A DNA stretch of 64,000 nt from Paratrimastix pyriformis (taxonomy: Eukaryota; Preaxostyla; Paratrimastigidae), in assembly GCA_027972325.1 (NCBI GenBank), contig JAPMOS010000068.1, positions 122,501-186,500 on the forward strand, written 5' to 3'. The notes beneath the pieces were generated by a model that was not told the DNA's origin, did not search any database, and saw only the letters and a list, made by a program, of their open reading frames with translations. The position numbers and the translations under genes were made by a program. This document shows positions 88-63,741 of the stretch, one piece after another; position 1 is the first letter of the stretch, and each line of letters starts with the position of its first letter.

Positions 88-3000
88 GGTCCTGGTGGTG
101 CCGGGGCGCCGCTGGTGGGTGCCGAGGCCATGGAGCGGGGCGTGGCGCGCCTCCTCCGGGAGGGGCACATCGAGACCGCACACAGGCTCTGTCTGCGCGC
201 CCCATTGCCGCCGGGCCCCCCACACAGTGGCACCGGCACAGCAGCACCGGCACAGCAGCAGCGGCACCGGCACCGGCACCAGTATCAGCACCAGCATCAG
301 TCACAGAATCAGCACCAGTATCAGCACACCAGTATCAGCACACCAGTATCAGCACACCAGTATCAGCACACCAGTACCAGCACCAGCACCAGCACCAGTA
401 TCCGTACTAGTTTCAGTACCAGCACCAGTATCAGCACCAGCACAGTAGCACTTGCAGCACCGCACTCCTGCCGACACCTCCCCATCCCCACGCCCCATCC
501 CATCCGGTCGATCTCATCCATGCCCATCCCCGTGCCACCCTCCACTCACCTCTCACCTCTCTCGTGACGCGTCCGTGCAGGCGTGCGGGCCAACCACAGC
601 AGCGCGGCGCTGCGGGTTGCCCAGCTGAGCTTCGGGATGGCCCGTGGGCTTCTCCGCCCGGCCGAAGTCCTGCGTGCCGCCGCCTCGGCCGGCCTCATGC
701 CCGGCTCCATCCCCGAGCTCAAGCCCACGGCCGTCCAGGGCCAGGGACAGGGACAGGGCCAGGGACAGGGCCAGGGACAGGGACAGGGACAGGGGCACCA
801 GGGTGGAAGCGGCGGCAGCGACCCCGCGCTGCCCATCCTGATGGCGTTGGCCAGACACCCCGGGGCCGGGCCCTACTGCTCAAGCATCCTCACCCAGTAC
901 AAGGTCACTGTGCCCCCCCACCCATCGCCCCCCCCCCCTCCCGTCACTGCATATGGGGGGTGGGCACACAGGCCTACTGCTCCAGCATCCTCCCCACAAC
1001 ACAACACGGCATCTGTGGGGCGCTCCCCTCGATGGTGGTGGTGGTGGCTGGGTGGTGGTGGTGGTGGCTGGTGGAGCGTCCCCCGGGGTGTCACACCTGC
1101 CGCGAGTCCGTTCGACCAGCCTCTCACCTCTCACCTCTCCTGCCTGTGGTGGTGGGCTGGTGGGTGGGCTGGTGGTGGGCTGTCAGGTATCGCACCTGCT
1201 GCGGGTCCCGTTCGATCAGCTTGTCACCTCAGACCCGGCCCACGTGGTGGCGGCCCTCCTGCGGGGCCCCCGCACCGCCGGCCACACGGCCCTCGTCCGG
1301 GCCTTCATCGACGTGCGCAGGCTCGACGAGGCCACGGTCCGCCTCCACAGACACACACGCACACACGCTGACACACGCATGGTATGATGAACCGGTGCCG
1401 TCGGATATCAGATTGGCAGCCCATTCGACCCGCTTTTCCCCGCCCCTTGAGTGAAGAATCAATCCCTTGGTTTGGCCTCCTCATGCCCGGTGATGCTGTG
1501 TGTCTGTGTGTGTGGGTGTGGGTGTGTGTGTGTGTCTGTGTGGTCTTCCAGACGGCCCGGGTGCTGGCCTGGCTGTACCACGCGGCCCTGCTTTCCAGCT
1601 TGCTCGACCTGCCCTTCACCGGCGAGGCGGCCGCCCCCAGCCCGGCCCCCAAGGCGGCCCCCAGCCCGACCGCCCTGGCGGTGGCGGCAGCGGCTCACAC
1701 GGACATCATCGCCGGCCCCCGGCCCGCCCTCCTCGCGCCCACACCCAGCGGGCCCGCGCCCATCCCCTCCCAGCCGGTCCGTCCCGTCCCGTCCCGTCCC
1801 GTCACGCCCGTCCACACAGGTCTCCCAGTCGTCGGCAGTGTCTTGTCAGGTCAAAAGGCTGAAGGAAACCCAACCGCCATTGAAAAACGTGTGACGCAAT
1901 GCTGTCTCTGCCATCCGACGGAGCCCCTGTGTGTCCCTGTCTCAGTGCGTATGTGTGTCCGTGTCTATGTCCATGTCTATGTCCGTGTCTATGTCCGTGT
2001 CTATGTCCATGTCTATGTCCGTGTCCATGTCCATGTCTATGTCCATGTCTATGTCCGTGTCTATGTCCATGTCTATGTCCATGTCTATGTCCATGTCTAT
2101 GTCCGTGTCTATGTCCGTGTCCATGTCCATGTCTATGTCCATGTCTATGTCCGTGTCTATGTCCATGTCTATGTCCGTGTCCATGTCCATGTCTATGTCC
2201 ATGTCTATGTCCATGTCTATGTCCATGTCTATGTCCGTGTCTATGTCCATGTCTATGTCCGTGTCTATGTCCGTGTCTATGTCCGTGTCCATGTCCATGT
2301 CTATGTCCGTGTCTATGTCCATGTCTATGTCCGTGTCTATGTCCGTGTCTATGTCCATGTCTATGTCCGTGTCTATGTCCGTGTCTATGTCCATGTCTAT
2401 GTCCGTGTCTATGTCCGTGTCTATGTCCATGTCTATGTCCGTGTCCATGTCCATGTCTATGTCCGTGTCTATGTCCATGTCTATGTCCGTGTCTATGTCC
2501 ATGTCTATGTCCATGTCTATGTCCGTGTCTATGTCCGTGTCTATGTCCGTGTCTATGTCCATGTCTATGTCCGTGTCTATGTCCGTGTGTGTCCATGTCT
2601 ATGTCCGTGTCTATGTCCGTGTGTGTCCATGTCCATGTCCATGTCTATGTCCGTGTGTGTCCATGTCTATGTCCATGTCTATGTCCGTGTGTGTCCATGT
2701 CTATGTCCGTGTCTATGTCCATGTCTATGTCCATGTCTATGTCCATGTCTATGTCCGTGTGTGTCCATGTCTATGTCCATGTCTATGTCCGTGTCTATGT
2801 CCATGTCTATGTCCGTGTCTATGTCCATGTCTATGTCCATGTCTATGTCCATGTCTATGTCCGTGTCTATGTCCATGTCTATGTCCATGTCTATGTCCAT
2901 GTCTATGTCCATGTCTATGTCCGTGTGTGTCCATGTCTATGTCCGTGTGTGTGCGTGTGGCTCTCGTCTGACATTCCCGCCCCCCGTCCCTCCGTCTGCC

Positions 3001-62281: not shown

Positions 62282-63741
62282 TCATCCGGCGCGAGGTGGA
62301 AGTAGCACTTTCTGATGGCCACGTTCCGACGACACTGGAAGTGCCACATGATGCAATGGGAGCGGGTCGACGAAGAACCATGGATCGCAGAGCGCCTGCG
62401 CAGAGTGGCACCGATTGAACATAATGTCGCAAAATGTGGAGACCTGTTCTGCTGTGAGACGGTCTGGAGGATTGTAGACAAGGAGTTTTTTCAAGAATTG
62501 CATTGCTTGGGGGCTGGCATCTGGGAGGAGAGACTGTCCCCAAACAAACAGGGATCGAACGGGAAGCCCGCGAAACAAACCTCGAGCGGGACGCCGGGGA
62601 GCTCAGGGAAGCTGATCTTGTGGTAGTCGGGCAAGGATTGCACCCCCTGAACCACCACAACGAGAGAGAAACGATCGCTCGTCAATCGGAGAAGGCAGAC
62701 CGGCCAGCGCGCCTCCGTGGGGGTCCCCATGATCTGCTGGACTCGGTACAGTTGCTCGATGTCACTGTCGGCCTGGTGGAACGGGGCAGTGAACGATTGC
62801 TGGAGGGCAGAATCCATATCCCTCATCGCCCAAGCCCACGTCCTCACGCAAAGGAGGGTCAGGAGAGCGGACCACAAAGAGGGGCGCGTGCCCGAGCAAC
62901 TCGGCCATGATACACCCGACAGCCCATATGTCGACGGCGTAGTCATAGTGCTTGGCCCCATAGAGAAGCTCGGGAGCACGGTACCACCTGCCCCGCCCCA
63001 CCGTTTCGTCGATGAATTGCACGCCGGGCGAACAGACCGAGTGGCCACCTGGTGCGTGTAGGGGCGATCAGAGTTCTCCGTCTCCATCACCCTGGCCAGC
63101 CCAAAATCCCCGATCTTCAGATCGCCCCTGGTCGAAAGGAGGAGGTTGGCTGGGCGTGTTGAGGTGATGTCTACTTTGAGACCGCCGGAACCACCCAGCC
63201 GACAGACATGGTTTGAGGTCGCGGTGGATGATGGAGTTCCGGTGACAATAAGCGACCCCTTGCAACAGCTGTTCCATGTACATTTTGATGGCCTCTTCGG
63301 GGAGCGGCCGCTCGGATCTAGGATCATGATGCAAGGGTGGTCAGAGCCAACCGAGCCTTCACCACCGGACCCCCGCAACAGAGCTGCCAGATCGGCAGGC
63401 ATGTACTCAAAAACCAAGTTGAGCTGAGAGCCCTGGGAGAAGGAGTCTAAAAGCGGAACGACCTACAAAGGGGCGAAGTGTGAGCGCAAATCCACGATGG
63501 GGTTGACATTGGGATGATGGAGAAACTGAAGAGCTTTTAGTTCTCGAATTGAATTACTTGCCATCCCTACAAAAAACCAGTGGAATGCCAGCTGGCCATC
63601 ACAGGCAAACCATCCTCGGGTCGTGAGAGGCGAACTTTCTTCAGGGCCACCTCCTGGTTCTGTCCGAGGTCAAGAGCTCGATATACAACCCCAAACGTTC
63701 CCTCTCCAATTTGTTCGATAATCCGATAGCGAGACAGAGGA
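62282..63741 (-). CDS. CDK20: CDK20 (CCRK)-like protein kinase, 5' end missing
   Basis: CDK20 regulates cilium length and cell-cycle kinases in animals. Seen in order: [20 protein letters not shown] (Gly loop), [17 protein letters not shown] (catalytic Lys; human CDK20 VALKKVALRRLEDGFP), [15 protein letters not shown] (C-helix Glu), [62 protein letters not shown] joined to [57 protein letters not shown], and [20 protein letters not shown]. All catalytic residues are intact. As in CDK20, PDYxKISF and SPQA blocks identify the subfamily. No ATG is found upstream in frame; the kinase exon seems to start at an acceptor (TTTGAG, 63742-63744), so a 5' exon lies farther upstream, perhaps outside the window. 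Some donor choices are approximate. Confidence 0.85.

Follow-up and report, generated by a model that had tools for sequence, protein, structure and literature searches.

Donor Sites and U1 in Described Systems

The ACUUACC 5′ end of U1 small nuclear RNA (snRNA) is treated as near-invariant, and in the departures from the usual 5′ splice site (donor) that have been described elsewhere, as far as the text of these reports was available, U1 is unchanged, lost, or joined by an extra copy (PMC10581693, PMC1501061, PMC12621601, PMC13326754, PMC11732430). Here we examine Paratrimastix pyriformis (Metamonada, Preaxostyla), in which the donor code, as sampled, and its U1 appear from their sequences to have moved together. 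Our starting point was a stretch of 64,000 nucleotides, hereafter the window (C461:122501-186500 in the 56.06-Mb, 495-contig assembly), for which an original prediction had placed GTCYGY rather than GTRAGT at the 5′ end of introns in nearly all genes and had expected a compensating change in U1.

In the Saccharomycotina, +4 preference, including switches from A to U, is associated with METTL16 and with M141 of SNRNP27K, and the U1 candidates, obtained from 227 of 230 genomes and 9 of 10 outgroups, all keep ACUUACC; the authors note that a switch of +4 from A to U could be compensated by A at U1 position 5 (Parker et al., 2023; PMC10581693). P. pyriformis resembles this group in showing a lineage-wide change of donor preference, but U1 is unchanged in the available account of the Saccharomycotina (PMC10581693), whereas P. 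pyriformis keeps METTL16 and SNRNP27K and has changed U1 itself. Fritillaria borealis also departs from the usual donor genome-wide; there the U1 5′ end is described as strictly preserved and a re-patterning of N6-methyladenosine (m6A) is proposed (PMC13326754), unlike P. pyriformis, with its changed U1. The diplonemid S. specki also has an altered U1 5′ end, but only in a second gene: that copy carries a run of C, a conserved copy is kept alongside it, and complementarity to the same canonical donors is comparable (PMC12621601). In P. pyriformis, by contrast, all eight U1 copies found are changed, and the donors too.

Oxymonads, like Paratrimastix, are placed in Preaxostyla. Such a relative is the oxymonad Streblomastix strix: among its 21 introns, 20 are GT-AG, the donors are GUAUG-like, and the interaction with U1 was suggested to be conserved (PMC1501061). 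It shares with P. pyriformis a non-GTRAGT donor with U at +4, but differs in having A at +3 (PMC1501061).

U1 snRNA Genes

We detected eight U1 genes (L001-L008), all outside the window, on contigs C212, C231, C349, C441, C482, C495, C388, and C24. Each aligns to positions 1-166 of the 166 in the canonical U1 model RF00003 (50.8-60.2 bits, below the gathering cut-off; E 3.7e-13 to 2.0e-10), and at the four loci compared with the whole of Rfam the family assigned was U1. The 5′ end of all eight reads AUACAGACCU, compared with the usual AUACUUACCU (longer start, identical in 8/8, AUACAGACCUUGC; consensus AUACUUACCUGGC). Positions 5-6 are AG where the consensus has UU, and position 11 is U where it has G; the bases facing donor positions +1, +2, +5, +6, and -1 are those of canonical U1. 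The donor is GTCYGY and not GTRAGT. Thus ACAGACC is present in 8/8 genes and the canonical ACUUACC in none, and the complement of the changed end is AG/GUCUGUAU (the slash marks the exon-intron boundary).

A CCCATAA motif lies upstream at near-fixed distances of 59-60 bases for U1 (8/8), 52-54 for U5 (7/7), and 66-67 for U6 (4/4). Because the three families share this motif, each at its own near-fixed distance, the U1 genes look like genuine snRNA genes with the start given here, and the motif, present upstream of all 19 snRNA genes found (L001-L012, L039-L045), is likely an snRNA promoter element. We infer that the genes starting AUACAGACC encode the putative working U1.

The covariance model, with which 41 of 992 candidates were scored, yielded no canonical-ended U1; because it rewards the canonical end, such a gene should have obtained a higher score if its body were similar. 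The pattern ATACNNACCT...GATCA, with positions 5-6 left open, matched 18 places in the genome, eight of them the U1 genes, and TT stood at positions 5-6 in 0/18. The compensating U1 change is therefore supported, close to the form anticipated: a sequence near GCRGAC had been expected, and ACAGAC occupies positions 3-8 in 8/8 genes, with position 3 remaining A. The alternative offered at the time, a normal U1 with relaxed pairing, is not supported, no canonical-ended gene having turned up in either search.

The lowest-scoring U1 gene (L008, C24:520094-520250) reads CAGAATG instead of CATAATG just before the Sm-like site and may be a variant or decaying copy. The sole zf-U1 match in the genome is presumably closer to WBP4/FBP21 than to U1C.

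Intron Donors Placed by Homology

Placing introns independently of the motif is the test of the donor observation. For this we used our own spliced aligner, which requires only GT..AG and charges every intron equally; the GT and AG ends are imposed by the aligner and are not themselves a result. The clean set consists of 30 introns from two genes of this one genome, PRP8 (18) and RPB1 (12), both outside the window. PRP8 was aligned to 25 homologues, out of 79 near-full-length proteins among the 120 matches listed. Each of its introns is the best-scoring GT..AG pair within 24 bases, by a margin of at least 13.5 score units wherever a rival pair scored, and the donors are GTCCGT (7), GTCCGC (4), GTCTGT (2), GTCTGC (2), GTCTGG (1), GTCGGC (1), and GTTCGT (1).

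For RPB1, the deposited P. pyriformis protein aligned over residues 1-1816 of 1816 with no insertions or deletions, giving 12 introns. The genome paper predicted genes with retrained Augustus, PASA, and intron hints from RNA-seq (PMC10703272), which lends these junctions indirect support from RNA. When the deposited protein was excluded and 10 other homologues were used, 11 introns were obtained, nine of them identical to the deposited model. In these searches, an RPB1 record labelled Rhizopus microsporus outscored the Trimastix protein against the Paratrimastix query; the best local alignments are 56% over 73% of the query for the Rhizopus-labelled record and 63% over 100% for the Trimastix transcript.

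The 30 donors read GTCYGY in 20 cases, GTCYG in 25, and GTRAG in none. Position +3 is C in 28 (T in 2), +5 is G in 28 (T in 2), and -1 is G in 25. Pyrimidines dominate at +4 (29/30: C 18, T 11; G 1) and at +6 (24/30: T 15, C 9; G 4, A 2). The GTRAGT-like donor of U2-type (major) introns is not represented, with GTRAG in 0/30 and C at +3 in 28/30. The GTCYGY donor observation is confirmed; its extension to nearly all genes holds in this set for C at +3 and G at +5, the exact six bases being found in only two thirds.

Pairing of U1 with the Donors

Pairing was scored over -3 to +8 on the 30 homology-placed donors. The organism's own U1 forms on average 7.03 Watson-Crick pairs and canonical U1 5.53, with mean predicted duplex free energies (dG) of -8.35 and -4.05 kcal/mol, respectively (mean ddG -4.3). 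The own U1 is the better partner at 30/30 donors, so that its 5′ end shows the complementarity that had been proposed as a check. Of the 256 possible tetramers at U1 positions 3-6, the actual ACAG comes third, and the canonical ACUU 64th, in the number of Watson-Crick pairs formed with +3 to +6; with G-U at half weight they rank sixth and 95th. U1 A3 pairs with U, the commonest +6 base (15/30).

We therefore consider it very likely, from these sequences, that P. pyriformis switched its major-class donor from a GTRAGT-like form to (A)G/GTCYGY, with U1 snRNA changing with it. The end AUACAGACCU would pair with AG/GUCUGUAU through +3 C with G6 and +5 G with C4, +1, +2, and -1 pairing as usual, and this pairing would drive recognition. 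The pyrimidines at +4 and +6 would face U1 A5 and A3; U there would make a Watson-Crick pair, and C would make an A.C mismatch or a protonated A.C wobble, seemingly tolerated in this GC-rich genome. From the near-absence of purines at +4 (1/30) we infer selection for a pyrimidine opposite A5.

Donors from a Gene Model Without Homology

We applied a self-trained gene model to 264 kb (the window plus 200 kb), with counts taken outside PRP8; its training used PRP8 codons and intron interiors, and its donor was left flat. It placed 334 introns, among which 145 begin GTCYGY and none GTRAGT (+3 C 0.73, +5 G 0.64), and a repeat run gave GTCYGY in 144/335 (43%). In the same sample, 878 of 25408 GT dinucleotides (3.5%) read GTCYGY. 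Replacing GT by the decoys GC, GA, GG, CT, TT, AT, or CC yielded 224-365 "introns", with xxCYGY in 1.9-5.9%. Because decoys also yield such numbers, some introns of the flat set must be false, and the true share is probably above 43%; many of the introns lacking +3 C and +5 G are probably misplaced, and some may represent a minority donor class. The initial settings, which gave 681-965 mostly tiny genes, were replaced by stricter ones, and GTCCGC was the top donor under both. A learned-donor (motif-trained) model places 391 introns (+3 C 0.86, +5 G 0.81) and recovers 16/18 PRP8 introns, figures that are circular and given for completeness only. In this motif-trained set (264 kb), C stands at -3 of 88% of acceptors and G is the most frequent base at -4 (57%); there may be a weak pyrimidine tract.

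Introns Within the Window

Both strands of the window together hold 249 GTCYGY strings, and because of this number the motif at any one coordinate is weak evidence alone. The flat-donor model places 102 introns here: GTCYGY 42, GTCYG 47, GTRAGT 0, and GTRAG 1; judged by the decoys, GTCYGY would be expected in about 2-6% by chance. All 16 donor coordinates proposed originally do read GTCYGY (16/16). The flat model uses seven of them as donors and the motif-trained model 10, the latter figure being partly circular, and 46967 is a donor in the spliced alignment of UTP4; 13719, 23465, 35260, 47152, and 57243 were recovered by no method and stay unconfirmed.

UTP4, at about 47-52 kb of the window, was aligned to eight homologues (31-42% identity) with two master sequences. 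The protein search returned no P. pyriformis protein among its matches and served weak alignments only. The two masters give 16 and 17 introns, and the 13 donors in common have C (10) or T (3) at +3, with GTRAG in none. Introns placed in the window include the following; those at 46967, 1337, 5552, 20181, 22841, 36179, 36511, and 40313 use donors from the original prediction.

46967..47027, plus strand, UTP4 intron GTCTGC...CAG, from the spliced alignment with both masters and no donor motif
47609..47693, plus strand, UTP4 intron GTCCGC...CAG, from the UTP4 spliced alignment and the flat-donor model
47757..47977, plus strand, UTP4 intron GTCCGC...CAG, from the UTP4 spliced alignment, margin 37 score units over the next GT..AG pair
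48370..48664, plus strand, UTP4 intron GTCCGC...CAG, from the UTP4 spliced alignment, margin 20.9
48785..49106, plus strand, UTP4 intron GTCCGG...CAG, from the UTP4 spliced alignment and the flat-donor model
1337..1551, plus strand, predicted intron GTCCGC...CAG, from the flat-donor model
5552..5768, plus strand, predicted intron GTCCGC...TAG, from the flat-donor model
20123..20181, minus strand, predicted intron GTCCGC...CAG, from the flat-donor model
22709..22841, minus strand, predicted intron GTCCGC...CAG, from the flat-donor model
36179..36326, plus strand, predicted intron GTCCGC...CAG of a PP2C phosphatase gene, from the flat-donor model, the protein matching PP2C
36511..36659, plus strand, predicted intron GTCCGC...CAG of the PP2C phosphatase gene, from the flat-donor model
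40313..40429, plus strand, predicted intron GTCCGC...TAG of a NAGPA-domain gene, from the flat-donor model, with a protein domain match

Among raw open reading frames of the window, 1/10 had a Pfam match; among proteins predicted after splicing, some of them with low-complexity ends removed, 8/10 matched at least one family. Very long simple repeats (TCTATGTCCGTG-like, ATC triplets) lie between predicted exon stretches at 1960-2940 and 4000-4320. The motif-trained model also predicts two similar-looking, divergent potassium-channel-like genes at 17904-22987 (minus strand) and 24187-27125 (plus strand), the plus-strand gene matching Ion_trans_2.

Several results weigh against a joint switch of donor and U1. 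All eight U1 genes score under the Rfam gathering cut-off (69.5 bits), and very divergent U1 copies could be missed in a search that scored only part of its candidates. Two of the 11 homologue-only RPB1 introns differ from the deposited model, both being GTG-type placements: GTGAAG replaces the model's GTCTGG, and an additional GTGCTG appears in the C-terminal part. In the flat-donor model, 150/334 introns lack the combination of +3 C and +5 G, and in UTP4 exact GTCYGY is found at only 6/13 common donors, the homology being weak (31-42% identity over 13-39% of the query). As to pairing, the commonest +4 base, C (18/30), has no Watson-Crick pair to A5, and the tetramers ACGG and GCGG outrank the actual ACAG by Watson-Crick pairs; ACGG would pair better because +4 is mostly C.

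U6, U5, and the Factors Associated with +4

The four U6 genes all carry the usual AUACAGAGA, and loop 1 of U5, viewed in two of seven copies, is CGCCUUUUACUA and looks conventional. The heptamer AUACAGA is common to the U1 5′ end and the 5′-splice-site box of U6. METTL16 is represented by a Pfam match of 64.5 bits over part of the model that also matches solved U6 A43 methyltransferases and contains NPPF. SNRNP27K matches part of its family model at 34.7 bits; RQYMNRKG corresponds in the alignment to residues 138-145 of the human protein, with methionine as the counterpart of M141. Loss of METTL16 or SNRNP27K as the cause of the switch was rejected, both being present with NPPF and the M141-equivalent methionine.

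In the proposed mechanism, U6 with its unchanged ACAGA box would read the same bases after U1, in the same register, and the donor may thus be read twice by identical letters. We tentatively suggest, as a possibility somewhat short of an even chance, that at the recognition site U1 now duplicates U6, so that one code would check the donor twice. U1 A5 would then take the place of U6 A43 opposite +4, and either pyrimidine would fit since both readers present adenosine. Perhaps the adenosine opposite +4 is m6A or inosine; the tolerance at +4 might be explained if U1, too, were a target of METTL16 or of an editing enzyme. We give U1 modification a low chance, because the full METTL16 nonamer, UACAGAGAA, is only partly present in U1 (UACAGACCU).

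How the donor and U1 might have changed stepwise can be guessed from one relative, Streblomastix. Starting from GUAUGU, +3 A to C alone would yield GUCUGU; with +4 U already in place, one more pair would come from A at U1 position 5, after which G at U1 position 6 could follow together with +3 C.

Minor-spliceosome RNAs are also encoded. A U12-like gene (L046, C432:103343-103517, minus strand) scores 44.9 bits, under the 53-bit cut-off, with a strongly U12-like 5′ end, and a U6atac gene (L048, C445:22122-22254, plus strand) scores 46.6 bits, above the 33-bit cut-off, so that P. pyriformis seems to keep a minor spliceosome. The U12-type donor is RTATCC and is recognized by U11; U11 was not found in the genome by a search that lacked a positive control.

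Other Explanations

The strongest competitor gives the lead to U6: donors would have drifted toward full pairing with ACAGA (UCUGU), and U1 would have followed, ending as AUACAGA. It would leave the same present lock and key and is not exclusive with a joint switch of donor and U1, from which it differs in cause and order. The shared AUACAGA favors it, as does the ability of GTCTGT to pair with all five ACAGA bases where GTAAGT pairs with three, and in Streblomastix, with A, U, and G at +3 to +5 (GUAUG), U at +4 may predate the U1 change (PMC1501061). However, pairing to U6 is not maximized, the mean being 3.73 of 5 Watson-Crick pairs to ACAGA with C more frequent than U at +4, and the identity may be coincidental, since AUACAGACCU differs from the usual U1 end at just two of positions 1-10. 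We regard this order of events as plausible but somewhat less than evenly probable.

It is far less probable that U1 plays little part, with site choice falling to PRP8, U6, and proteins as in systems whose U1 pairing is dispensable or lost. Cyanidioschyzon and some extracts do splice without U1 (PMC11732430), but a U1 end freed from its role would be at liberty to decay, yet 8/8 copies keep one exact sequence, and that end pairs better than the canonical one at 30/30 donors.

Still harder to sustain is the idea that GTCYGY is a by-product of GC-rich composition and intron guessing, the real donors being ordinary. Predicted intron interiors are indeed 44.5% C, and the motif abounds in the window; however, the decoys fall far below the 43% seen with GT, +5 is G in 28/30 homology-placed introns though G makes up only 19.4% of intron interiors, and the U1 genes bear the matching change. 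That the introns belong to the minor (U12) spliceosome can practically be set aside despite the U12-like and U6atac genes, GTCYGY being unlike RTATCC (A at +3 in 0/30 homology-placed donors) and fitting the changed U1, with one U12 and one U6atac match against eight for U1 (all counts being lower bounds).

Significance of the Unusual Donor Code

Among the matches listed in openly licensed literature, we found no report of the U1 change or of this donor in P. pyriformis, and the available text of the genome paper mentions introns only in its methods and in one reference title (PMC10703272). Gene finders with a GTRAGT prior would misplace introns here, and perhaps in relatives too. If U1 is indeed a copy of U6 at the recognition site, the code of the major class would be rewritable genome-wide while METTL16, SNRNP27K, U6, and U5 loop 1 stay as they are. 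P. pyriformis would be a natural counterpart of laboratory compensatory U1 mutants, in which one could study how an RNA acting in trans changes along with its many targets and what requirements U1 and U6 each place on +3 and +4.

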